From Nitrospira sp. (lineage in GTDB: Bacteria; Nitrospirota; Thermodesulfovibrionia; Thermodesulfovibrionales; SM23-35), in assembly GCA_016873615.1 (NCBI GenBank), contig VGWX01000024.1:1-32563 (forward strand): 32,563 bases of DNA, written 5' to 3'. Both the position numbers and the translations under genes were made by a program. The notes under the pieces are model-generated. The model was not told the DNA's origin. It ran no database searches and saw only the letters and a program-made list of their open reading frames with translations. Shown here one piece after another: positions 13,711-30,627 of this stretch (positions are counted from its first letter, which is position 1; each line of letters begins with the position of its first letter).

Positions 13711-15723
13711 ATGAAGTCTCTTGACTTTGATGCTCTATCCTCTTTGCACGCTCACCTGTCACATCTTACAGGTCTTTCCATTTCAGTGTATGGAGAAAAT
13801 GGAAACAGGATTCTTCTCCCGGTCAATGAAAATAAACTCCTCTCAGTTGTGAGAGCTACAACAACGGGAAGAGAGGAATACAATGAGTTTATGAAGAAAA
13901 ACCTCGAAAATACGATCCGGAAAAATGATGTTTCAATATCTAAGGGACCGGCAGATCAACATTATTTCTTCATCCCGCTTCGCATTGAAAATACGATCCT
14001 GATCATCACCGGAGGTTGCATCTACCTTTCTGTTCAGGATTTTGAGAATTTCTATAGAAAAAAGGGGCCATCTTACGGCCTCCTCCCTTATCAAATAAAA
14101 TCCTGGTATCCGGAGATATGTATCAGGGATTATGCAGATATTCAGGACAATGCCAGGCATATCTGCTCACTCTTCAGTCTTATCTTAAGTAGCGGTCATA
14201 AAGACAGGATTGCTGAGAAAAGGCACAGATTGATGAAAATTATTATCAGTCTTATATCCGAAATACGGTTTGATCAGCAGGCTGACGATGTATATGATAT
14301 TCTGCTCGACATCATCCTCTTCCTGTTCAATGCTGACAGCATTTCTATAATGATCAGGGACAATGACACATTTTCGACCCAAAAAACAGCCGGCAGATTG
14401 AGAGATCAACTGCAATCAATCCCGTTAACGGTCTCAGGCATTATAAGCGAGGTTGTTGAAAAACAGAGACCTGTATGCTCTGAATCCGTGATGGACATCC
14501 TGAGGTTAGGTTACCCTGATGCAGTCACATCGATTTATGCATTCCCCATTATATCTGAAAATAAGGTGACCGGATTATTAAATATCTTCAACTCTGAGGT
14601 ACATCGGGAGGATGCGGATATTATCTTCGGGATATGCAAGATTACCGGTTTTATAGTAAGGCTTACAGAATTACTGGATATGCGTAATAAATACCTGAAA
14701 GAAATAGACGTTTTGAATACAGCAACTGAACGCATTACCCCTGTGAAAGAACCTGATATGCTCTATGAAGCAATACTTGATACATCAGTGCATCTTGCAG
14801 GGGCAGAAAAGGGCTCTTTGATGATAGCAGATGATGATTTATGTCTTACGGTGAAGGCTGCAAAGGGGATACATAAAATGCTCCAGAGCGAGATAAAGAT
14901 CAAGGCAGGTGAAGGAATATCAGGTAGGGTCTTCAGAGAAGGCATGCCGCTTATAGTTGAGGACATCGAAAAACACGAGTGGGGTTCCTCTGTAAAAAGA
15001 TCAAAATACAGGACCGGCTCTTTCATTAGCATACCGCTGAAACTTGGGGAAAAAACTATCGGAGTTTTAAATATCTCTGATAAGATTACAGGTGCAGTAT
15101 TTTCCGAACAAGATATGGTTTTACTCCGCTCTTTTGCATCATTTGCATCTATTGCGCTTGATAGGTCAAGCTATTACAGTCTTGCCGGCCACCTTAAAGA
15201 ATTATCCATAACAGACTCTTTGACAGGCGTTTTCAACAGGCGGTATTTTGAGGAGAGGTTTTTTGAGGAAATCCAGCGTTCAAAACGGCACAGCCTCTCC
15301 TTTTCACTTGCCATGATAGACATAGATGATTTTAAACTCTTCAATGACACAGAGGGACACCTCGCCGGCGATGAGATATTGAAACATATTGCCAATATCG
15401 CAAAGGACAGCCTGCGTATTATTGACGTCATAGCGAGATTTGGAGGAGAGGAATTTGCAGTAATCATGCCACAGACAGATAAAGATGAGGCGTTTATGGT
15501 CACTGAAAGGATAAGGAAATCTATTGTGGAATACCTGCCACGCACATGGAATATTTTCCCGAATGACGCCATAACCATCAGTATCGGTATAGCATCATTT
15601 CCGTCTGATGGCAATGACCGAAAATCACTTATACGAAATGCGGATAAAGCGCTTTATACAGCTAAAATAAAAGGCAAAGACAGGACAGTGGTATGGGCAA
15701 ATCAGCAGGCTAAGCCTTTCTGA
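13711..15723 (+). CDS. GAF-domain diguanylate cyclase (GGDEF family, GGEEF active site)
   Basis: GAF-like repeats; C-terminal DSLTGVFNRRYFEERF ... DVIARFGGEEFAVIMP ... ISIGIASFPSDG. Confidence 0.9.
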   Translation: MKSLDFDALSSLHAHLSHLTGLSISVYGENGNRILLPVNENKLLSVVRATTTGREEYNEFMKKNLENTIRKNDVSISKGPADQHYFFIPLRIENTILIITGGCIYLSVQDFENFYRKKGPSYGLLPYQIKSWYPEICIRDYADIQDNARHICSLFSLILSSGHKDRIAEKRHRLMKIIISLISEIRFDQQADDVYDILLDIILFLFNADSISIMIRDNDTFSTQKTAGRLRDQLQSIPLTVSGIISEVVEKQRPVCSESVMDILRLGYPDAVTSIYAFPIISENKVTGLLNIFNSEVHREDADIIFGICKITGFIVRLTELLDMRNKYLKEIDVLNTATERITPVKEPDMLYEAILDTSVHLAGAEKGSLMIADDDLCLTVKAAKGIHKMLQSEIKIKAGEGISGRVFREGMPLIVEDIEKHEWGSSVKRSKYRTGSFISIPLKLGEKTIGVLNISDKITGAVFSEQDMVLLRSFASFASIALDRSSYYSLAGHLKELSITDSLTGVFNRRYFEERFFEEIQRSKRHSLSFSLAMIDIDDFKLFNDTEGHLAGDEILKHIANIAKDSLRIIDVIARFGGEEFAVIMPQTDKDEAFMVTERIRKSIVEYLPRTWNIFPNDAITISIGIASFPSDGNDRKSLIRNADKALYTAKIKGKDRTVVWANQQAKPF

Positions 15724-16500: not shown

Positions 16501-16610
16501 ATTTTTTGTATTGGGCAAAGCGCTCAATAGCAGAGCTTTATAACAACCAAAGTTCTCAGGAGTGCAGTGCAACTCCTGACGAATCAGAACACGGAGGAGA
16601 AAAAGAGAAA

Positions 16611-16931
16611 ATGGCAAAAAGAATTTTTGTTGGGAACCTTTCTTACAAAGTGGATGAAGAATCACTCAAGGATGTATTTGCAAAGATAGGAGAGGTTCAG
16701 TCAGTTAAGATAATCACAGACAACGCAACCGGACGCTCAAAGGGGTTCGGTTTTGTAGAGATGGGCTCTGATGCAGATGCTGAGAAGGCAATTGCCAGCC
16801 TGAACGGCACTTCACTTCTTGACAGAAACATAACCGTTAATGAAGCAAGACCTCAGACCTCCAGAGGCAGGACTGACAGCAAAAGAGGTCAGGGTGGCGG
16901 TTTTGGAAGGAAATCCGGTAATTGGAGATAA
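16611..16931 (+). CDS. RRM-domain RNA-binding protein (track ORF start 16506; ATG at 16611 more likely)
   Basis: RNP2 RIFVGNLSY and RNP1 KGFGFVEM; Gly/Arg-rich C-terminus; SD GGAGGAG upstream of 16611. Confidence 0.93.
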   Translation: MAKRIFVGNLSYKVDEESLKDVFAKIGEVQSVKIITDNATGRSKGFGFVEMGSDADAEKAIASLNGTSLLDRNITVNEARPQTSRGRTDSKRGQGGGFGRKSGNWR

Positions 16932-17360: not shown

Positions 17361-18485
17361 ATGAGTCTTGTGGGACGGCTTGAAGACCTTGCCCTTTCTG
17401 ATATTTTTCAGATACTCAGTATAGGCAAAAAAACAGGCACCCTCCTTCTTAAGGGAAGCCGCGGGAATGCCCTTATAACCTTCAAAAATGGCCTCGTTGT
17501 AAGAGCAGAGACTGACGATATTGAAAAAACTCTCGGCGATGACCTGTTACATTCCGGGCTCATAAAAGACACTGTTTTCAATTTAGCTTCGGAAGTAAAA
17601 AAAAAGCTGCCTGCAAAATCCCACGTTGAAATACTCTTTGAACTCGGCTCCGTTAGTAAAGACACCCTGGAAAAAATAACAAAAAAAAGGATAGAGAGGG
17701 TTGTATGTCAACTGCTTGTATGGCAGGACGGTGATTTCCAGTTTGAACCCGATGATACAGACCCGAAAGGAAAGGTAGAGATATCTGACTTTGGCTGGGA
17801 GCTTTCAAAAGGAATGAGTCCGGAATATCTCTTAATGGAAGGGGCCAGGGTACATGATGAATCTTCACAGACTGCAACAGTTTCAACAGAGCAATTGACC
17901 GGGAGCCGGGAAGATGAGGAAGCATGGGAACAGGACTGGGATGTCATGCCCATTACGGAAAGAAAAGATATTTCGTCTTTGAGGGCCCTTACCCAGGAAT
18001 TACGGTTCCCGAATTCAGCATCAGAAATAACCCTTCTTATTCTAAGATTTGCAAGCGATATATTCCAGAGGGGCATCCTCTTTATGGTTGGCGATACAGA
18101 GGTTGTCGGACTTGGACAGTTTGGGCTCGACATAGATGGGGCTGATGAAAAGATAAGGGAGATAACTCTACCTTATGAAGAAAGCGCTTTTCTGGGAAAG
18201 ATTATACTGGAAAAACGTCCTTACAAAGGATTTGTGGAAAAAGATCCCGCAGTAGAGTCAATGATTCAGGAAATCGGAGGACAATGGCCTGATAAATTTG
18301 CCTTTTTCCCTATTATAGCTGAAGACAGGGTCGTTGCAATCCTTTATTGCGACAATCTGACGACTGAAGAAAAAGCAGGAGAGACAGAAGGTCTTGAGAT
18401 TTTCATAGATCAGGCGGGGCTTGCCCTTGAAAAATCTCTGCTCCAGAGAAAACTGCAGGAAATGGAAAAAAAGACCAAATCATAA
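17361..18485 (+). CDS. DUF4388/PATAN-domain protein with C-terminal GAF-like domain
   Basis: SLVGRLEDLALSDIFQILSIGKKTGTLLLKGSRGNALITFKNGLVVRAE is PATAN-like; C-terminal FAFFPIIAEDRVVAILYCDN is GAF-like. Confidence 0.8.
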   Translation: MSLVGRLEDLALSDIFQILSIGKKTGTLLLKGSRGNALITFKNGLVVRAETDDIEKTLGDDLLHSGLIKDTVFNLASEVKKKLPAKSHVEILFELGSVSKDTLEKITKKRIERVVCQLLVWQDGDFQFEPDDTDPKGKVEISDFGWELSKGMSPEYLLMEGARVHDESSQTATVSTEQLTGSREDEEAWEQDWDVMPITERKDISSLRALTQELRFPNSASEITLLILRFASDIFQRGILFMVGDTEVVGLGQFGLDIDGADEKIREITLPYEESAFLGKIILEKRPYKGFVEKDPAVESMIQEIGGQWPDKFAFFPIIAEDRVVAILYCDNLTTEEKAGETEGLEIFIDQAGLALEKSLLQRKLQEMEKKTKS

Positions 18486-18520: not shown

Positions 18521-18910
18521 ATGCAGAGAGAAGCAGCCACTAAATCCATTCTTATCGTTGAAGATTCATCGACAACGAGGGCCCTCATCAGAGCTATTAT
18601 TGAAGAGATGGGAGACTTTACTATAGTGGAGGCTGGTTCAGGATTCGAGGCATTAAAGCTCCTTCCTACAGAGGAATTCAGCCTTGTCATAACTGATGTA
18701 AATATGCCTGATATCAATGGTCTTGAGCTTATCAACTTCATTAAGAATAATCCCAGATATACTCACATGCCCCTGATAATTGTGAGCACCGAGAGAAGCG
18801 AGGAGGATAAAAAACGTGGGATAGCGTTAGGCGCAATGGCTTATATTGCCAAGCCGTTCAAGGCTTATGAACTCCAGGAAGTTATAAAACAAGCTCTAAC
18901 AGGCATATGA
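18521..18910 (+). CDS. cheY: CheY-like single-domain response regulator
   Basis: SILIVEDSSTTRALIR; phosphoacceptor VITDVNMPDINGLEL; AKPF. Confidence 0.9.
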   Translation: MQREAATKSILIVEDSSTTRALIRAIIEEMGDFTIVEAGSGFEALKLLPTEEFSLVITDVNMPDINGLELINFIKNNPRYTHMPLIIVSTERSEEDKKRGIALGAMAYIAKPFKAYELQEVIKQALTGI

Positions 18911-20868
18911 AGGCCTCTAAAAAAGAATTCATCGCTGAGGCAGAAGATCTCCTTTTTGAATGTCAGCAGCTTGTTATCGAGATCCAGGGCACTTATCAAA
19001 CAGCATTAAATCCCGATACAATCAATGCGCTTTTCCGTTATATGCATACCCTCAAAGGACTTTCAGGTCTTTTTGGGAATAAGGGCATAACAGATATCAG
19101 CCATGCCCTGGAATCTCTTTTAGATGAAATAAGACTCGGAAAGATATTGATTAACGATACGATTGTGAATTTTCTATTCAAGAACATTGATATCCTGAGG
19201 TCTGCCATAGACGGGGTCAAGGAAGATCAGGAACCGGATTTGACCGAGGATATAAATAATATAAAGACCTTCAGGACGTCTTTGCAAGAAATGGCGATCG
19301 AAGTGAGTCTTCACGGACTTATTGATGAATCTATTGTTAAGGTGCTCTCAGAATATGAGGAACACAGGCTAAAGACAAATATAAAAAGCGGGAATGGCAT
19401 TTATCTTTTAAAAGCAGTTTTTGACCTTTCAACCTTTGACAAATCACTCGAAGAAACAACAAAAATAATAAAATCAAAAGGTGAACTGATATCCACCCTC
19501 CCTACATCTGCAGATGTGCCGAATGGCTCAATAGGATTCAACCTGATGTTTTCCACAAATATGCTCCTGAACGGGGTAAAGGAACACCTTGGTGAAAATA
19601 TTGAAGTTCTTGTGCAGGGAAAACAAACAGTAGTCCAGCCGCAGAAAAAACAGGAACAGTCTATTAAAAGCACAACAACCACGGTACGGGTTGACATAGA
19701 CAAACTTGACAGAATACTCAATACCATCGGAGAACTTACACTTGCAAAAGATGCCGTAAAAAGAATCGGCAAGGAATTAGCCGATGCATACCATTATTCG
19801 CCTTTTGTGCAAGACATAAACAAGATTTCTCAGACACTCGAAAGGAAACTTACAGAGCTTCAGGATGAGGTTCTTGAGATACGTATGGTCCCGGTAGGTC
19901 AGATATTCTCAAGACTCGCTCAGGTAATCAGGCGTTATTCAAGAGAGATAGGGAAAGAGATAGAACTGAACCTGTATGGGGAAGATACAGAGCTTGATAA
20001 ATCCCTTGCCGAGGAGATAGTTGACCCATTGATGCACCTTGTGAGAAATTCGCTCGACCATGGCATAGAGCCATCGGAAGAGAGGAAGAAAAAAGGCAAG
20101 AAAGAAAATGGCCGCATTGTTCTGAAGGCGTTCCAGAGGGGAAATCATGTTGTGATCGAGGTTAAAGATGACGGCGGCGGCATAGACACTGAAAAGGTAA
20201 GGGAAACAGCGATAAAAAAGGGATTGCTTGAGCCCGATGCCAAAGTGGAAGAACGTGAGTTTATTGATTTCATCTTCAACCCCGGTTTCAGCACAAAAGA
20301 TGTCGTGAGTGAAATTTCCGGCAGGGGCGTCGGCCTGGATGTTGTCAAGGAAAAACTCTCTGCCCTTGGTGGCTTTATAGAGGTTTATACAAAAAAAGAT
20401 AAAGGGACAACATTTACACTTACCTTGCCGATCACCCTTGCCATAATAAAGGCGCTTATTATTAAAGTCGGGCAGGAGAAATTTGGCATACCGATAACAA
20501 CCATATCTGAGACCATTGCGATCGAGCTACAGGACATTCAGACTATAGAATGGAAGGATGTCTATTATCTCAGAGGTGAAATGCTTCCTATAATCAGCAT
20601 AGCAAAAATTTTCAATATAGAGACAAAAAAAAGTGATTTTTCATTCGCAATCATTGTTGGGTTTGGCAAGAAAAAAATAGGACTGCTCGTTGATGAGATT
20701 ATAGGGCAACATGAGATTGTTATAAAGTCGCTCGGTGAATATTTCAAGGGCTTAAGTGGTTTTGCAGGCGCGGCAGAAATAGGGAGGCATGAAGTGCTGC
20801 TCATTCTTGATATAGAATCCATTATGGAAAAATCTCTCATAAAACAGGAGGGTGCCTCTCGTGTATGA
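18907..20868 (+). CDS. cheA: Chemotaxis histidine kinase CheA
   Basis: Hpt MHTLKGLSGLFG; H-NBox HLVRNSLDHGIE; DDGGGID; ISGRGVGLDVVK; C-terminal CheW-like regulatory domain. Confidence 0.95.
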   Translation: MKASKKEFIAEAEDLLFECQQLVIEIQGTYQTALNPDTINALFRYMHTLKGLSGLFGNKGITDISHALESLLDEIRLGKILINDTIVNFLFKNIDILRSAIDGVKEDQEPDLTEDINNIKTFRTSLQEMAIEVSLHGLIDESIVKVLSEYEEHRLKTNIKSGNGIYLLKAVFDLSTFDKSLEETTKIIKSKGELISTLPTSADVPNGSIGFNLMFSTNMLLNGVKEHLGENIEVLVQGKQTVVQPQKKQEQSIKSTTTTVRVDIDKLDRILNTIGELTLAKDAVKRIGKELADAYHYSPFVQDINKISQTLERKLTELQDEVLEIRMVPVGQIFSRLAQVIRRYSREIGKEIELNLYGEDTELDKSLAEEIVDPLMHLVRNSLDHGIEPSEERKKKGKKENGRIVLKAFQRGNHVVIEVKDDGGGIDTEKVRETAIKKGLLEPDAKVEEREFIDFIFNPGFSTKDVVSEISGRGVGLDVVKEKLSALGGFIEVYTKKDKGTTFTLTLPITLAIIKALIIKVGQEKFGIPITTISETIAIELQDIQTIEWKDVYYLRGEMLPIISIAKIFNIETKKSDFSFAIIVGFGKKKIGLLVDEIIGQHEIVIKSLGEYFKGLSGFAGAAEIGRHEVLLILDIESIMEKSLIKQEGASRV

Positions 20869-21679
20869 GGAATTTTTCGGCCTCAGGCAGCGACCTTTCA
20901 GCAAAACGCCTGATCCTAACTTTCTTTTTTTAAGCAGGAATCATGAAGAGGCATTGGCAAGGCTTCAATATGCTGTAGAGGAAAAAGAACTTATCCTGCT
21001 CACAGGAGAGATCGGCAGCGGGAAAACTACACTGACCCGTGCCCTCATGGATTCTCTCGGCGAAAAATACAGGATTATTCTGATAATTAATCCGCAGCTA
21101 ACCCCGATGCAATTCCTGAGGACAATCGCAAAGCGCTTTGATTTAGATATTCCTTACAATTACAAAGATAATCTGCTTGATGCAATATACGAAAAGGTCT
21201 ACAAGGATTTTGAGTCCGGGATAACACCGGTTATAATAATAGATGAGGCGCAGCTGATACCAAACAAAAGCACCTTTGAAGAGATAAGGCTTCTTACGAA
21301 CTTCCAGCTCGATTACACAAACCTTCTGAGCCTGATACTCGTGGGTCAGACAGATTTGCGCAGGAGATTGAACCACAAGACATACCTTCCCTTAAAGCAG
21401 CGGATAGGAATGTTTTTTCATCTCGGACCCCTGACTGAGGATGAAATCAAAGGTTATGTGGAGCACAGGTTGAGGATTTCAGGGCTTGATAATCCCTTGT
21501 TTACAGATAGCGCGCTGAAACAGCTTTATCATTACTCAGGCGGGATACCAAGGGTAATCAACAGCCTTGCCACATCAGCCCTTCTTGAAGGATTCAGCAG
21601 GGAGCTGCGGATCGTGGATGAAATGCTTATGCATGAAGCAGCACGGGAGCTCGGATTAAATGGATATCGCCAAAATTAG
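20861..21679 (+). CDS. ExeA/GspA-type AAA ATPase embedded in the che operon (GTG start 20861 preferred; track start 20852)
   Basis: MYEEFFGLRQRPFSKTPDPNFLFLSRNHEEALARLQYAVEE; Walker A TGEIGSGKTTL; Walker B VIIIDEAQL; AGGAGG 9 nt before 20861; overlaps the cheA stop by 8 nt. Confidence 0.88.
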   Translation: MYEEFFGLRQRPFSKTPDPNFLFLSRNHEEALARLQYAVEEKELILLTGEIGSGKTTLTRALMDSLGEKYRIILIINPQLTPMQFLRTIAKRFDLDIPYNYKDNLLDAIYEKVYKDFESGITPVIIIDEAQLIPNKSTFEEIRLLTNFQLDYTNLLSLILVGQTDLRRRLNHKTYLPLKQRIGMFFHLGPLTEDEIKGYVEHRLRISGLDNPLFTDSALKQLYHYSGGIPRVINSLATSALLEGFSRELRIVDEMLMHEAARELGLNGYRQN

Positions 21680-22403
21680 AAAAAAGCTTAAAGATTCAGA
21701 AGCGGAGAGTCAACAATCTAAAGCTTATGGTCAATCTGCAAAGGCGCCTGCGGACCAGACTGTTACGCATGACAAAATAATCCCGGAACCATCTTTCAGG
21801 CATGTTTCCACCTCTAACACTGAACAACAAACACCTGATATCGAAGCCCTGGAAACTGTTGGCACTGAAAAGGAAACGAAATCATCAGATAATGCACAAT
21901 TACAGACCAGGGAAGATCAAAAGAAGACACTCAGTGTTAAGGAAAATATAGAAGCTGAGAAAGAAGAAGAAATTATTGAGATACTTACCTTCAGCCTGCT
22001 GAAAGAAGAATTTGCATTCAGGGTCTCCCAGCTTGCTGAAATCCTGAGGTCCCAATGGATAACAAGGGTTCCAAATGTTCCTGACTATGTCCTCGGGATT
22101 ACTTCACTCAGGGGGAAAATCATCCCGGTGATTGATCTTAAGCTCAGACTTTCCCTGACATCCAGTCCATCAGATGTTATCCGCAAAGGCAAGATCCTGA
22201 TAATCAATGGGGACAAGGGGCCTGTCGGTACAGCAGTCGATAAGGTCATCGGCGTTGTACGTGTTGCAAAATCTGATATATTGCCGCCGCCGTCTCATCT
22301 CTCAGAAAAAGAACTCAAATTCATTGATGGCATAGCTGTTGTAGATAAGCGCTTCGTCTCAGTAATAAATATGGAAGAGGCAATTGCCCTGCATCTAAAA
22401 TGA
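21660..22403 (+). CDS. CheW-domain protein with ~105-aa acidic, low-complexity N-terminal extension
   Basis: C-terminal CheW domain EFAFRVSQLAEILRSQWITRVPNVPDYVLGITSLRGKIIPVIDLKLRL; N-terminus rich in E/K/Q/S. Confidence 0.88.
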   Translation: MDIAKIRKKLKDSEAESQQSKAYGQSAKAPADQTVTHDKIIPEPSFRHVSTSNTEQQTPDIEALETVGTEKETKSSDNAQLQTREDQKKTLSVKENIEAEKEEEIIEILTFSLLKEEFAFRVSQLAEILRSQWITRVPNVPDYVLGITSLRGKIIPVIDLKLRLSLTSSPSDVIRKGKILIINGDKGPVGTAVDKVIGVVRVAKSDILPPPSHLSEKELKFIDGIAVVDKRFVSVINMEEAIALHLK

Positions 22404-22440: not shown

Positions 22441-24960
22441 ATGAGAAAAATTTCAAGAGAAAGCCTCGAATTCAAGTATCTGATCTTTGTTATAGGACTG
22501 CTGATCACCGGAATCCTGTGGTCCGGTATTGTATCATTCAGTGCTGTTTCGCTCGAAAAAATATATGGCAGAAGTTTTCAGTCTATTATGTGGGTCACGC
22601 TTATCTCGATCATAGGAATCACAGTAGTAGCTTTTTTATTCTGGATAGTTGCCAGGAAACTGGTAATTAAACCGCTTCAATCCATTGAAAAAGCCGCCAG
22701 ATCCCTGGCCGACGGAGATCTCACCTTTCGCCTGGATCTGAAGGCAGATGACGAGATAGGCAGGACGAGCAAGGCTATGAATGAATCTTCCCGCTCTCTC
22801 GGTGATATTTTCCAGAGGGTTAAGAACGGGTCAAAACGCGTAACCGCGGTTGCTGAAAAAGTAGAATCTGAATTTAATAAAGTTAGAGAAAATACAAAAC
22901 TCGAAACTGAGGCAATAGCCAATATTGCGAGTTCATTAGAGGAGATGAATTCAGCGGCAGCGGAGATCTCTGAGAGCACTGAGCGTCTTGCAGTCTCTAC
23001 AGAGGAAAAAGCAGCGTCAATGGAAGAAATTGTCACAAGTATAAGTCAGGTTGCACATAGCGCCCAGGAACTGTCAAATGTAGTCGACACAACATCATCC
23101 TCAATTGAAGAACTGTCTGCAACAATAAAAGAGGTAGCCTATAAGGCGGAGGAACTTGCTGCAGCCTCGGAAGAAACGCTTGCTGCAACAGAAGAAATTT
23201 CCTCTTCCATCAAAGAAGTTGAACAGAGCGCAAAAGAATCTGCGATGCTGTCGGAAAAGGTAAAAAATGAAGCATCTACTCTCGGCATATCGTCAGTGGG
23301 GAAAACTATAGAAGGGATTCAGAATATCAAAATATCATTTGACAACACAGCCAATTCCATAAATAAACTTGGCGTGAGATCAGATGAAATCGGCAAAATC
23401 CTGAATGTCATTGATGAGGTTACAGATCAGACAACCCTGCTCGCCCTTAACGCAGCTATACTTGCTGCTCAGGCAGGTGAACACGGGAAAGGGTTTTCGG
23501 TTGTTGCTGATGAAATAAAAGACCTTGCAGAGCGAACATCCTTCTCAACGCACGAGATAGCGGCACTTATTCAGGCCGTACAGCAGGAGGTAAAAGACGC
23601 TATTCTCGCTATGGATGAAGGCCTCAGGTCTGTAGAAGAAGGATTAAGTGTTGCAAATGACGCAGGCGACGCCCTCAGCAAGATAGTCGAGAGTTCTAAA
23701 AAATCAGCAGAAATGTCATTTTCCATTGAGCGCTCGACTGCGGAACAGGCAAAGACAACAAGACTTGTTTCAGAGTCCATGGAAAAAGTAAAAAACATGG
23801 TTTCACAGATTGCCAAGGCTACTTTAGAACAGAGCAAAGGCACACTGCTGATCACAAAAGCTACAGAGAAAATGAGAGACGTTTCCAATCATGTGAGAAC
23901 TGCAACAAATGAACAACTTATAAGCACCAAGCATATATCTGAAGCTATGGAACTCGCATCTGAAAAAAGTATTCAGATAGCCAAGGCTGTTAATGAACAA
24001 AGGGCAGGCGCAAGCCAGATATTCAGCTCTATCGAGAAGATAAAAGATACTCCAAAGCATAACATGGACAGAATGTTCAGCATAAACCAGTCACTAAAGG
24101 GTTTGTTCAAGAATACAGAACTTCTGACAAATGAACTGAAGAGGATTAAGTTACCCGATGAAGGGTCAGCCGGCTATACAGACATTGATATTGTAAGGTT
24201 CGGCGTTGAGCCTGTTGGTGGAGTTTCGCCTCTCGAGATTCAGGAAAAATTCAGCCCTTTGGCAGAACATCTCAGCAAAAAAACCGGGAAGAAGGTTGTG
24301 CTGAAGGTCGTATCTGATTATGAGGGTATTTTACGGGATATTGAGAAGGGCCTTACTCAATTCTCTTTTGTAAGCCCTGTTACGTACATCCTAGCAAAGA
24401 AAAAATATGGAACCCAGGTTATTGCCAAAGCATTGATTCAAGGAAAATCTACGTATCGTTCTGTCATCGTAACAAAAAGCGCCGGCAGGATTAACTCGAT
24501 CGAAGACATCAGGGGACGAAAATTCGCTTTTGGAGATCCGCACTCACTCTCGAGCTACATCGCTCCAAGGAATATGCTCCTTAATGCGGGAATTGATTTA
24601 AAAGATCTGCTCCATTATGAATATCTCGGCTCACATGAAGCTGTGGCAGATGCAGTCCTGAGCGCAAATTTCGACGCGGGAGGAATAAGAGAGAGCGAAG
24701 CAAACAAATTTAAAGATAAAGGACTCAAGTTTATTCAGTTCTCTGAAAATCTCCCGGGGTTCATTGTATGCGTCAGCAAGACAATGCCTCAGGGGACGAA
24801 AGAATCTCTTGAGATTGCACTCACTGCGCTGACAGACACAAGACCGGAAAGTTCCGCAATTCTCCATTCAATTTACAAACGTTACAGCGGCTTCGAAAAG
24901 GCTTATGACACTGAATTTGCCCAATTAGAGTCCATGATGTCTCAATTAGGTCTGCCTTAG
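22441..24960 (+). CDS. Methyl-accepting chemotaxis protein fused to a C-terminal PhnD-like periplasmic-binding-protein domain
   Basis: Two N-terminal TMs, HAMP, MCP tip [42 protein letters not shown], then from ~24187 [53 protein letters not shown] (PhnD-like). Confidence 0.9.
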
Positions 24961-25002: not shown

Positions 25003-25485
25003 ATGAAATTTGCTGTTTTTAAGATAGGAGAGGAAATATTCGGGATTGAGATCAATAAAGTTGTTGAGATCCTCAATACACAAAAAGTCTATTCATTGCC
25101 GGAACTGCCTGACTTTCTCTCAGGTGTTATCACTGTTAGGGGGGAAGTGTTGCCACTCCTTGATCTGAGAAAAAGATTCGGCGTCAAATCCACTGATACA
25201 AAAGAGCTTGTCATAATAGTGCGGTCTGAGAGCGAGAAAATCGGATTGCTCGTAGATGAAATAAAAGAGATACTTTCCCTGAATGTCCAGGAGATCACAA
25301 CTCCCCCAAGCATATTCAAAGGCCTGCAAAAAAAGTACCTTACCGGGCTTGGCAAGAAAGACGATAGGATAATAATCCTTCTCAATATAGACTACCTCCT
25401 TACCTCAGAAGAAAAGATAATTCTGAAAGAGTCAGAAAGGATATTGGAAGAAGATGCAGGAACTGGAAAGGCTACTGAAAGATAA
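25003..25485 (+). CDS. cheW: Chemotaxis coupling protein CheW
   Basis: FAVFKIGEEIFGIEINKVVEILNTQKVYSLPELPDFLSGVITVRGEVLPLLDLRKRFG. Confidence 0.92.
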   Translation: MKFAVFKIGEEIFGIEINKVVEILNTQKVYSLPELPDFLSGVITVRGEVLPLLDLRKRFGVKSTDTKELVIIVRSESEKIGLLVDEIKEILSLNVQEITTPPSIFKGLQKKYLTGLGKKDDRIIILLNIDYLLTSEEKIILKESERILEEDAGTGKATER

Positions 25486-27433
25486 TGATGTTGAAGTCAG
25501 GAGGGATGCTCTTGAAAGACTGAAGGGAAAGTCAGGTGACATTTCTTCTATAAATCTGCTCCTGAAAGCTATGGAAGACACAAGCTGGAGGGTAAGGAAC
25601 ACTGCCGTAGATATCATCATCGAAGAACATCCGATCGAAACCTATATCAATAGTTTGATTAATCTCCTATATCTTGACGATAATGCAGGAGCAAGGAACT
25701 CTGCAATTGAAGCTCTCGTGAGACTCAATAAAAAGGCAACTATTTTTCTTATCGAGGCATTCAATACACCTAACAGGGATGTAAGAAAATTCATCATAGA
25801 TGTCCTCGGAGAATTTAAAGACAGCAGATCCCTCCCGCTAATGCTCAGCGCCCTCAGGGATGACGACGAAAATGTTCGCGCCACAGCCATAGAACATATC
25901 GGTAAGGTAGGCGAATCATCTGTGGTTGACGCCTTAATAGAAATAGTCGAGAGTGATGATATCTGGACAGCCTATCCTGCAGCTGATGCGCTTGGCAGGA
26001 TTGGAGACAGGAAGGCTGTACCGGCCTTAATAAAGGCATTAGACAAAAAAACACTCAGGATACCTACTATAAAGTCTCTGAGTTTGATTGCAGATCCTGA
26101 TACGCTAAAACATATAATCCCTTTTTTAGAAGATCCGTCAAAGACTGCACAGGAAGAAACCCTGCGCAGCATAGAGAGATTCTACCGCAAAGGAATAAGT
26201 GAAGAAATAGTAACAGGGGAAATAAAAAGACTTATCGGTGACAGGACATTAGATATACTTATAGCGCATGCATGGTCCAACAAGCCTGAGGCAAGGAAAT
26301 CTGCAATACTCATCCTCGGTTTAATGAAAGATGAGAGGGCTTTCACTCCTCTCCTCGATATATCACAGGAAGAAGATTTCGCAGAAGAAGTTAAAAGGGC
26401 CTTCGTATTTATCGGGAAAGACAGACCGGAATCTTTATTAAAACTGTTTGAGACCGAGAATGTTTATCAAAAGCGTTTTATATGCGACATAGCAAGCAGG
26501 ATAGTCTCTCCTGTTTATTCCCCTGTTTTTGAGAATCTTCTGGATGATGACGATGGACATATCCGCTCCATCTCTGCGATAGCGCTTTCGAAAATCAGTG
26601 ATCCAAAGTCCGTAGAACCCATCAAAAGACTCCTGACCGACCCATATCAGGACGTTCAGGAAGCTGCTGTTGAGGCGCTCTCAAACCTTGGAGCATGGCT
26701 TTCAACCGATGAACTCATAAGTATGCTCGGTAATATGAACCCGATACTCAGGAGAAACGCAGCTTTGATACTCGGGAAAACAGGCTCAAAAGAGGCAGTG
26801 CCTGCCCTTGGTTTCGCGCTTAAGGATGGGAATGTAAATGTAAGGAAGGCTTGCGTTGAAGCATTTTCACTATTAAAGACAGAAGATTCCATCAGGTTTC
26901 TCATCTTTGCGCTTACTGATGAGGAACCTTTCATCAGGGTTTCATCAGCTGTCAGCCTTGGCCGCATAGGGGGTAAAGGCGTCTTTGAGGCCCTCTCTCA
27001 TCTCCTGTCCGATACAGATGACTCCGTCCGGGTTGCTGTATCAAAGTCCTTAGGTATGCTTAAAGACAACCGGGCTGTTAAACCGCTTATCGGGCTTCTA
27101 TCCGACAGAAATGGTTTTGTTGTGACAACAACAATAGAGTCTCTCAGCAGGATAGGCGGGGATGAGGCAAAATATGCCTTATTGAAGATGCTTGCTTCAG
27201 AAGATAAAGAGGTCAGAAGGACCGCCATAAAAGCGCTTTCATCATTTGAGGACAGTCAGGATAAATTAATGCCCTTTCTCTACGATGCTGATTGGGCAAC
27301 AAGAATGGCTGCTGTAGAGGTTTTAGGGAAAAAAGCAAGGGGTATTATACGAAGGGAACTCGAAAAAATTCTTGATATCGAGCAAGATCCGATAGTAAAA
27401 AAGGCGATTGAAGAGAGCCTTAAAATAAGTTAG
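25454..27433 (+). CDS. HEAT-repeat protein
   Basis: Many ~30-aa HEAT repeats, e.g. DDDENVRATAIEHIGKVGESSVVDALIEIVES; overlaps the cheW 3' end by 32 nt. Confidence 0.92.
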   Translation: MQELERLLKDNDVEVRRDALERLKGKSGDISSINLLLKAMEDTSWRVRNTAVDIIIEEHPIETYINSLINLLYLDDNAGARNSAIEALVRLNKKATIFLIEAFNTPNRDVRKFIIDVLGEFKDSRSLPLMLSALRDDDENVRATAIEHIGKVGESSVVDALIEIVESDDIWTAYPAADALGRIGDRKAVPALIKALDKKTLRIPTIKSLSLIADPDTLKHIIPFLEDPSKTAQEETLRSIERFYRKGISEEIVTGEIKRLIGDRTLDILIAHAWSNKPEARKSAILILGLMKDERAFTPLLDISQEEDFAEEVKRAFVFIGKDRPESLLKLFETENVYQKRFICDIASRIVSPVYSPVFENLLDDDDGHIRSISAIALSKISDPKSVEPIKRLLTDPYQDVQEAAVEALSNLGAWLSTDELISMLGNMNPILRRNAALILGKTGSKEAVPALGFALKDGNVNVRKACVEAFSLLKTEDSIRFLIFALTDEEPFIRVSSAVSLGRIGGKGVFEALSHLLSDTDDSVRVAVSKSLGMLKDNRAVKPLIGLLSDRNGFVVTTTIESLSRIGGDEAKYALLKMLASEDKEVRRTAIKALSSFEDSQDKLMPFLYDADWATRMAAVEVLGKKARGIIRRELEKILDIEQDPIVKKAIEESLKIS

Positions 27434-27476: not shown

Positions 27477-28346
27477 ATGTTCGAAAAAGAAGAGATAATA
27501 CCACTTGAGGAAGAAGTCTTCAGACTTATCAGGGATTTTGTCAGGGATTACTGCGGGATATATTTTGATGACGACTCACGATATCTCCTTGAAAAAAGGC
27601 TTTCACGGAGGGTGCGGACCCTCCACTTCAGTAATTTCAGGGAATATTACCGCTATCTGCTGTATCACAAAAATCGTGAGGAAGAGCTCGCTTCAATCAT
27701 AGATATTATTACTATAAACGAGACATATTTTTTTAGAGAGCAAAATCAGCTCAAGACATTCAGTGAGGAGATTCTCCCTGAACTCAAGGATATAAATAAA
27801 GATAAAAAAAGACTGAGGGTTTGGTCTGCAGGCTGTTCAACAGGTGAGGAGCCCTATACTATTGCCATCCTCGTGCTTGAAAAAGGATATTTTCACAACT
27901 GGAACATAGAGATTTTCGGCAGTGATATAAACCAGAGGGTTCTTCAGGCAGCAAGAAGCGGCATATACAGAAAAAATTCGTTCAGGGCAACAGAGCCCTA
28001 TTTTCTGAGAAAATATTTCAGGGAAGAAGATAATATTTCGAGGATATCAGACAATGTCAAACAATACGTTAATTTCAGCCATCTCAATCTTCTCGATCCC
28101 TTCAAGGTAAAATTGGTGGGAACTGTGGATGTAGTATTCTGCAGAAATGTGTTAATCTATTTTGACTATCCATCGCGAAAAAAAGTGATCGAGATGTTTT
28201 ATGAAAGACTTGCTGATGGAGGATATTTATTACTGGGCCATGCTGAATCATTAATAAATATATCCACTGCCTTTTCCCTGAGACATTTTAAATATGACAT
28301 GGTCTATCAAAAACCCGCAAAAAAAGGAGCCTCTGTAGATGTCTAA
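27477..28346 (+). CDS. cheR: Chemotaxis protein methyltransferase CheR
   Basis: INETYFFRE; RVWSAGCSTGEEPYTIAILV; VDVVFCRNVLIYFD; LLLGHAESL. Confidence 0.95.
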   Translation: MFEKEEIIPLEEEVFRLIRDFVRDYCGIYFDDDSRYLLEKRLSRRVRTLHFSNFREYYRYLLYHKNREEELASIIDIITINETYFFREQNQLKTFSEEILPELKDINKDKKRLRVWSAGCSTGEEPYTIAILVLEKGYFHNWNIEIFGSDINQRVLQAARSGIYRKNSFRATEPYFLRKYFREEDNISRISDNVKQYVNFSHLNLLDPFKVKLVGTVDVVFCRNVLIYFDYPSRKKVIEMFYERLADGGYLLLGHAESLINISTAFSLRHFKYDMVYQKPAKKGASVDV

Positions 28347-29403
28347 AGTCAGGGTGCTTATTGTTGATGACTCTGCATACAGCAGACAGACAATCAAAAA
28401 AATGCTTGAGTCAGATGCCAATATCGAAGTAGCAGGCATAGCCTCTGACGGTATTGATGCAATGGCAAAGACACTAAGGCTCAATCCTGACATCATAACC
28501 CTCGACATCGAAATGCCCGAGATGGATGGTTTCAGTTTCCTCAGGTGGTTGATGAGCAACAGACCAACCCCTGTAATCATTGTCAGTTCATATTTTGACT
28601 CAAAGACTGTTTTTAGGGCGCTCGAATTCGGGGCGGCTGATTTCGTTGCAAAACCGCCGCGTATGGTCTCCTCCGAATTCCATAGACTGGAGAGTGATTT
28701 ATTAAGAAAAGTCAAAGGGATCAAGGGCTTTCGTCTGGACAAACTGAGCAAAAATCTCGAATTACTTGAGGAAAAAACTTTTCAAAGACCAATATTAGAT
28801 ACCTCAGATAACATTCAGGTTGTCGCCATAGGTTCATCAACCGGCGGGCCTGCTGCACTGAAGATAATTCTCTCGAAACTCCCTGGAAATTTTCCAGCCG
28901 GGATAGTGATAAGCCAGCATATGCCAAAAGGTTTTACTGCGTCATTTGCAGAGAGGTTGAACGCAATCTCAAAGGTTTATGTGAAGGAGGCTGCCGATGA
29001 TGACGAACTGGAAATGGGAAAAGTTCTCATCTGTCCGGGAGGCTTTCACATGTCATTTAAGAAAATGGCTGAGGGAATAGTGACTGTCATAAAAGAGCCG
29101 AAAAGTACAGATAAATACATACCGTCTATAGATGTAATGATGTCATCTGTTGCTGATATTTTTGGATCAAAAGCTTTGGGTGTTATATTGACGGGTATGG
29201 GTAATGATGGAAGATCAGGAATGCTGGAAATTAAGAAGAGAGGAGGGTATACTATAGCTGAATCAGAAGATACTGCTGTGGTTTTTGGTATGCCTGCAGA
29301 AGTTATAAGGGCAGATGCTGCAGAGATGGTGTTGCCCATCTCCAGGATACCCGTTGAGATAATAAAATTAGCTAAAGAAACACCAAGGGGTAAAGATTCA
29401 TAG
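28339..29403 (+). CDS. cheB: Protein-glutamate methylesterase CheB
   Basis: Receiver VLIVDDSAYSRQTI; catalytic motifs AIGSSTGGPAAL, ISQHMPKGFTASFAERL, GVILTGMGNDGRSGM. Confidence 0.95.
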   Translation: MSKVRVLIVDDSAYSRQTIKKMLESDANIEVAGIASDGIDAMAKTLRLNPDIITLDIEMPEMDGFSFLRWLMSNRPTPVIIVSSYFDSKTVFRALEFGAADFVAKPPRMVSSEFHRLESDLLRKVKGIKGFRLDKLSKNLELLEEKTFQRPILDTSDNIQVVAIGSSTGGPAALKIILSKLPGNFPAGIVISQHMPKGFTASFAERLNAISKVYVKEAADDDELEMGKVLICPGGFHMSFKKMAEGIVTVIKEPKSTDKYIPSIDVMMSSVADIFGSKALGVILTGMGNDGRSGMLEIKKRGGYTIAESEDTAVVFGMPAEVIRADAAEMVLPISRIPVEIIKLAKETPRGKDS

Positions 29404-29415
29404 AGTGGAGGATTC

Positions 29416-30243
29416 ATGGAAAAAGACTCCAATATAACAAGGAAAGTGGATGAGTTTCTTCAGATCTTCAAAAGGGGAGAGGAGTTTACCAAAGATCTGA
29501 TCAAAGAAAACGAGAGACTCAGGTTCAGGATAGCAGAGCTCGAAGAGTCTATTGAGAAGACAGGGAGTGAAGGAAGGATCAGACTCTATGAAGACAGGAT
29601 AAAGCTGCTCGAGGATGAGATTAATTCCATCCTGGACAGATACAAAAAGGCAGAGGAAGAAAATAAGGATTTCGCAGCTAAATATGTGGATGTAGAGGCT
29701 GAGAATAATATGCTTGCAAATCTCTATGTGGCAAGCTATCAACTCCATTCGACCCTGGACTTCAATGAGGTTTTACGGGTAGTAATGGAAATAATAATTA
29801 ACCTGGTAGGAGCTGAAAAGTTCGCAATATTCCTTATGGACGATAAAACAAATGAGCTCCTGCCGGCTGCTTCTGAAGGTTTGTCTCTCAATGAAATGCC
29901 AAAGGTAAAAATGGGGGAAGGCACTATCGGAAGAGTAGCAAAAGAAGGAGTGAGTCATTTCACGGAAAATATGACTGATACGGCAACTTCAGGAATTAAC
30001 GCTGCAAACCCATTTGTATGCATTCCGCTAAAGATAAAAGAACATGTTATTGGTGTAATCTCAATTTATTCACTCTTTATGCAAAAGACCTCATTTTCTA
30101 ATATTGATTATGAACTTTTTAATTTATTGGCAGGTCATGCTGCCACTGCAATATTTTCTTCAAGACTCTATACACAATCTGAGAGAAAACTTACAACCAT
30201 ACAGAGTTTCCTTGATCTTCTGAAGGAGAAGCCGAGAAGATAG
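29416..30243 (+). CDS. Coiled-coil plus GAF-domain protein
   Basis: N-terminal charged heptad-like coiled coil (~90 aa), then GAF (VGAEKFAIFLMDDKTNELLPAASEGL ... CIPLKIKEHVIGVISIYS). Confidence 0.85.
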   Translation: MEKDSNITRKVDEFLQIFKRGEEFTKDLIKENERLRFRIAELEESIEKTGSEGRIRLYEDRIKLLEDEINSILDRYKKAEEENKDFAAKYVDVEAENNMLANLYVASYQLHSTLDFNEVLRVVMEIIINLVGAEKFAIFLMDDKTNELLPAASEGLSLNEMPKVKMGEGTIGRVAKEGVSHFTENMTDTATSGINAANPFVCIPLKIKEHVIGVISIYSLFMQKTSFSNIDYELFNLLAGHAATAIFSSRLYTQSERKLTTIQSFLDLLKEKPRR

Positions 30244-30261: not shown

Positions 30262-30627
30262 ATGTTGAATGTTCTTGTTGTTGAAGATTCACCAACTATG
30301 AGACAACTCATAGGATTTGCCATAAAGAGGATACCCGGGTCAAGGGTTATTGAGGCAACAGACGGTGTTGATGCATTAAAGAAATTGTCCTCAGAAAAGA
30401 TAGATATTATCCTTGCTGACATTAATATGCCCATAATGGACGGCCTGAAATTAGTAAGTCTTGTCAGGAATAATCCTTCTTATAAGAGTATCCCTATCAT
30501 TATGATTACAACAGAAGGCGCTGAAGAAGATAAGAACAAGGCCTTAGCCATCGGAGCAAATGCTTATCTTACAAAACCCATACAGACGCAGGAGTTAATG
30601 AAGCTTGTGAACAGCTTCATATCATAA
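30262..30627 (+). CDS. cheY: CheY-like response regulator
   Basis: NVLVVEDSPTMRQLIGFAIKR; LADINMPIMDGLKLV; TKPIQTQEL. Confidence 0.92.
   Translation: MLNVLVVEDSPTMRQLIGFAIKRIPGSRVIEATDGVDALKKLSSEKIDIILADINMPIMDGLKLVSLVRNNPSYKSIPIIMITTEGAEEDKNKALAIGANAYLTKPIQTQELMKLVNSFIS

Follow-up and report, generated by a model that had tools for sequence, protein, structure and literature searches.

A conserved N-terminal motif of an extended CheW protein accompanies an ExeA-type ATPase in chemosensory operons and is a candidate site for docking the array onto it

Comparison of gene sequences across genomes strongly indicates that a short motif at the N terminus of an extended CheW protein is linked to an ExeA-type AAA+ ATPase encoded beside it. 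The motif is kept together with the ATPase, and four lineages without the ATPase have lost the motif as well. This pattern suggests that the CheW tail docks the chemosensory array onto the ATPase, and we consider docking through the CheW N terminus likely. A search of a limited collection of papers found no description of ExeA together with CheW in chemosensory systems.

The pair lies in a chemosensory operon on the forward strand of a 32,563-nucleotide stretch of Nitrospira sp. DNA (the window). The operon begins with a PATAN/DUF4388 protein whose position is conserved (17361–18485; PF14332, E 2.2e-24), followed by a CheY-like response regulator (18521–18910; PF00072), the CheA histidine kinase (18907–20868; Hpt, H-kinase_dim, HATPase, and CheW-like P5 domains in Pfam), the ATPase (20861–21679), and the extended CheW protein (21660–22403). 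Next come a methyl-accepting chemotaxis protein (MCP) with N-terminal TM/HAMP and C-terminal phosphonate-binding-like domains (22441–24960; PF00015, PF00672, PF12974), a second, canonical CheW that lacks both extension and motif (25003–25485; PF01584), and a HEAT-repeat protein that marks the operon and is kept in operons lacking the ATPase (25454–27433; PF13646, E 7.2e-97). The CheR methyltransferase (27477–28346; PF01739) and the CheB methylesterase (28339–29403; PF01339) follow, and the operon ends with a GAF-domain protein that recurs in relatives (29416–30243; PF13185) and another CheY-like response regulator (30262–30627; PF00072). By eye, the MCP has only two TM helices, both N-terminal, and its PhnD-like domain would be cytoplasmic. 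Upstream of the operon are genes for a PocR-GAF-GGDEF diguanylate cyclase (13711–15723) and an RRM-type RNA-binding protein (NCBIfam Rbp_regulator; 16527–16931). Another che cluster in the same genome (L088, G000:C53) lacks this ATPase.

The ATPase gene overlaps cheA by 8 nt and the extended CheW gene by 20 nt, and the coordinates thus bear out the arrangement given in a preliminary description of this DNA. It encodes 272 amino acids from a GTG start and contains the Walker A sequence GEIGSGKTT and the Walker B sequence IIIDEAQ; an alternative GTG is present at 20852, but orthologues start at the residue equivalent to 20861, which we therefore prefer. The protein had been described as ExeA-type but without a TM segment or a peptidoglycan-binding domain, and this was upheld by a Pfam match to AAA_22 (PF13401, E 2.9e-24), by a maximum 19-residue Kyte-Doolittle value of 1.09, and by the absence of any peptidoglycan-binding domain from the Pfam matches of the 272 residues. 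Fold and profile searches grouped it with MuB, TnsC, and Cdc6/ORC-type AAA+ proteins, which gave the best full-length AAA+ matches, and no ParA-type Pfam match was obtained. The ATPase is therefore a member of the MuB/TnsC/ExeA fold group and not of the ParA group, as had been proposed when it was set apart from ParA-type ParC. Its best NCBIfam match, TIGR03015 (the XrtA/PEP-CTERM system ATPase), scored 231.3 bits, under the curated cut-off of 324.5, and the neighborhood here is chemosensory. The orthologue clade (50–83% identity) carries the signature NFQxDxxN in place of NLExxxxK; set against GspA, residues typical of the che clade are K15, R34, E41, D64, Q149, and N154.

The extended CheW protein (247 aa) has a ParP-like architecture, in which an extension of about 105 residues precedes a CheW domain at residues 107–242 (PF01584; E 9.7e-30, 103.4 bits against a cut-off of 23.5). 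The extension had been noted as disordered-looking and as starting with MDIAKIRKKLK; 74% of its residues are charged or polar, and the linker portion has low pLDDT in AlphaFold models of an orthologue. Mean entropy was 0.94 bits in motif columns 1–11, 3.01 bits in the linker, and 1.93 bits in the CheW core, and M1 and R7 of the motif were invariant among 38 sequences. MDLAEIRKK, MDILAARKK, and MNLAKIRQK occur as variants. Conservation in the extension centers on the nine N-terminal residues, MDIAKIRKK, after which the sequence is variable. On the basis of entropy and composition, we divide the extension into a putative docking motif of low entropy (residues 1–11; 21660–21692) and a variable, polar, low-complexity linker that runs to the CheW domain (21693–21977). 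A strict DNA pattern for the motif matched 32 of 246 genomes, once in each and always at the start of the extended CheW gene, even though the genomes examined in detail encode several CheW domains apiece; the reversed pattern, used as a control, had no match in the 246 genomes.

Among 61 genomes, made up of the genome of the window and those of 60 relatives, 35 encode full-length orthologues of the ATPase with at least 56% identity; other full-length ExeA-type paralogues in this set show at most 44% identity. In a phylum sample, 57 of 246 genomes contain the ATPase at E <= 1e-70. A database scan added orthologues in Desulfuromonadales (Geobacter, Geomonas, Oryzomonas, Trichlorobacter, and Citrifermentans) and in Acidobacteriota MAGs. 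The gene immediately 5' of the ATPase encodes CheA in the first 30 loci (30/30) and in every testable database locus (55/55), and the gene immediately 3' of the ATPase starts with the motif in 56 of 58 database loci, four of which were read by eye. The ATPase–CheW pair is conserved across Nitrospirota, Geobacter relatives, and Acidobacteriota, so that the genome-neighborhood check suggested by the preliminary description found the adjacency both in related genomes and in other phyla.

In the Nitrospirota set, every other ATPase-positive genome with a readable CheW start has the motif (64/64, a count that accepts GTG starts, allows motif variants, and includes an orphan start in L132); one further case, cut off by a contig edge, lies outside this count. 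In six Nitrospirota genomes from two families, the operon is split exactly between the ATPase and CheW (L047/L075, L050/L078, L052/L076, L056/L080, L058/L077, and L059/L079). The ATPase always remains with CheA, and the detached CheW retains the motif. At two Acidobacteriota loci, the ATPase is followed by an RNase III-like gene (identified by eye) instead of CheW. We predicted beforehand that the detached CheW proteins of these genomes would carry the motif, and both do (MDLAKIRKKAK and the GTG-started VDLAKIRKKAR). Both genes adjoin HEAT genes, and the motif is absent from the other CheW genes of the two genomes. The motif is thus retained in 8/8 genomes in which CheW has moved away from the ATPase.

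Four genomes (G010, G024, G037, and G213) have kept CheA, CheW, MCP, HEAT, CheR, and CheB and have no intact ATPase, and according to the CheA tree they arose by four separate losses. In all four (4/4), the motif is absent from the CheW start. In G010, a single deletion removed the body of the ATPase and the start of CheW and runs into the CheW linker, leaving a remnant (L081:4326–4541) in which about the first 50 residues of the ATPase are recognizable; because one deletion spans both genes, the co-loss in this genome is a single event. The CheW extension of G024 (L085:8074–8979) is about 160 residues long and has a Lys/Ala/Pro-rich, histone H1-like start in place of the motif. G251, which has the motif without the ATPase, was considered as a counter-example and rejected: the matching CheA is also missing (best 37% identity), and in its sister G022 one separate locus holds both CheA and the ATPase, so that the draft of G251 is likely to have a gap.

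The deletion in G010 raises the question of whether the motif and the ATPase are linked merely by gene overlap and shared deletions. The 20-nt overlap occurs in most close relatives, and in an ancestor with this overlap, loss of the 3' end of the ATPase gene would have taken the CheW start with it. For the other three losses, however, the two genes mostly abut or scarcely overlap in the closest relatives that have the ATPase, and the motif is conserved without overlap and in every split operon. We also rejected the idea that the motif is a by-product of overlapping reading frames, as it is also present in genomes whose two genes abut, stand apart, or lie on different contigs. A link by overlap and shared deletion is largely contradicted by these observations and is most improbable. 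The same pattern bears on the proposal that the motif, as a basic amphipathic helix at the extreme N terminus of CheW, targets the membrane rather than the ATPase. All of the genomes have a membrane and receptors, yet the motif tracks the presence and absence of the ATPase, and the invariance of R7 seems stricter than a membrane helix should need. We regard membrane targeting as very unlikely.

Structure prediction offers a weak indication in the same direction as the docking model. At the orthologous locus L066, the ATPase, a stop codon, and CheW are in one frame, and reading the stop as a residue yields a linked model. In this AlphaFold model, the motif helix has a pLDDT of 80–81 and the surrounding linker 35–45, compared with values of 71 and 60 in the two blocks of the motif and 53–63 in the linker when L066 CheW is modeled alone. 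The gain would fit docking of the motif on the ATPase, but it is modest, is judged by pLDDT, and comes from a linked reading that by itself brings the parts together. A Foldseek search with the orthologue model matched CheW folds.

Gene order ties the ATPase more closely to CheA than to CheW, and therefore control of the kinase or of array assembly is also possible. According to this alternative, the ATPase would act mainly on CheA, through kinase control or assembly of CheA–CheW rings, and the CheW motif would be a recruitment handle with no part in positioning. The ATPase adjoins CheA in all testable loci, including the split operons, and published transposon data can be read in the same way. 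In the Esn network of G. sulfurreducens, GSU2220 (CheW), GSU2221 (ATPase), and GSU2222 (CheA) are adjacent (PMC5585712), in the same order as in the window's operon; GSU2221 is the probable orthologue of the ATPase, matched by gene order and annotation and not by sequence. During electrode growth, the Tn-Seq log2 values were −2.4 for GSU2220, −2.1 for GSU2221, and −2.8 for GSU2222, a growth defect in each case, and the authors of the library reported relief of polar effects by transcriptional read-through; that study confirmed the CheW and CheA deletions and did not take a GSU2221 mutant further (PMC5585712). The signalling-type defect of the ATPase thus resembles those of CheA and CheW. What places the ATPase on CheA is gene adjacency alone, however, whereas the CheW start is what changes upon loss of the ATPase. 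We consider a main action on CheA unlikely.

The preliminary description also pointed to secretion and pilus ATPases, and this link can now be made concrete, because proteins encoded next to other ExeA/GspA-type ATPases start with a similar motif. Genes beside paralogous ExeA-type ATPases often start with MSYILDALKK (GspB-like) or MSRIEKALEKA, and the neighbors with these starts are GspB-like and tyrosine-kinase-like (L070–L073 and L238–L264). A fixed regular expression for the related motif matched 20 of 83 adjacent same-strand genes and 1 of 321 others (Fisher p 4e-14, an optimistic value, as the expression was composed after some examples had been seen and the loci are related). The idea of a wider rule arose from L222–L236, and 13 of the 20 matches are in loci inspected later. 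The motif is absent from the remaining 63 of the 83 genes, and we rejected E. coli K-12 GspB as an example because it has no clear match; a family-wide motif is accordingly not universal. A docking rule of this kind may nevertheless be common to the whole ExeA/GspA family. In the GspA/GspB (ExeA/ExeB) pair of type II secretion, the AAA+ domain is homologous to the ATPase studied here and the partner's N terminus carries the related motif MSYILDALKK, and formation of the published ExeA–ExeB complex requires the ExeA ATPase domain. The chemosensory pair differs in that its ATPase lacks TM and peptidoglycan-binding parts, its partner is a CheW, and it forms a distinct orthologue clade; some GspA proteins also lack the periplasmic part (PMC9239104).

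These relationships allow a further alternative, in which the module links the array with an envelope machine of the pilus or secretion type, machines of the kind that other ExeA/GspA ATPases serve. FlhA, of the flagellar export apparatus, is absent from the window's genome (G000) and from 25 of the 35 ATPase-positive genomes, the window's genome included, and PilT-family ATPases are encoded in all 61 genomes, from which we conclude that most hosts probably have a non-flagellar output. PilT is universal in this set and so does not discriminate between the explanations. The operon contains no gene for an envelope machine, and the TM and periplasmic parts of GspA have no counterpart in the ATPase. 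On balance, coupling to such a machine seems quite improbable.

The pair had also been likened to ParC/ParP of Vibrio. Both systems comprise an ATPase encoded in a che cluster and a CheW-like protein with an N-terminal part and a long linker; in ParP, the N terminus is reported to bind ParC and an SH3-like domain inserts into the array (PMC5706961). ParC is a ParA-type ATPase, whereas the ATPase here is an AAA+ protein of the ExeA/MuB/TnsC type, and the conserved N-terminal part is a nine-residue peptide. The pair is thus laid out like ParC/ParP but falls outside that system, because the ATPase family differs. Of the suggested likeness, the conserved pair and a probable N-terminal docking function stand; the notion of a 105-residue partner domain gives way to a nine-residue peptide and a linker.

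MuB and TnsC, the fold relatives of the ATPase, act in DNA transposition and are controlled by partner peptides. By analogy with them, the ATPase would be expected to assemble into rings or filaments in an ATP-dependent manner, and the ATPase and extended CheW would together make up a two-part tether. We propose that the amphipathic helix formed by MDIAKIRKK binds the ATPase, that some 95 residues of flexible linker join this peptide to the CheW domain, and that the CheW domain inserts into the chemoreceptor–CheA array. The ATPase could then act as a platform, switched by nucleotide, for recruiting, assembling, or positioning the array, probably at the envelope and in the service of a surface or pilus-based behavior. 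We lean toward docking combined with a scaffold or tether role for the pair. Array positioning is plausible by analogy, and the chance that docking results in positioning or assembly of the array falls a little short of even.

For the placing and building of arrays beyond Vibrio-like and ParA-based systems, this pair provides a defined, testable case of an ATPase and a peptide. It spans several phyla, including culturable Geobacter relatives, in which a probable orthologous operon has a published electrode-growth phenotype. The findings also suggest a general rule of client recognition for ExeA/GspA-type ATPases. We offer as a tentative idea, somewhat against the odds, that these ATPases recruit their clients by a common code, a short amphipathic peptide at the client's N terminus, and that chemosensory arrays may have taken over one branch of the family as a device for positioning or assembly with no relation to ParA-type systems.
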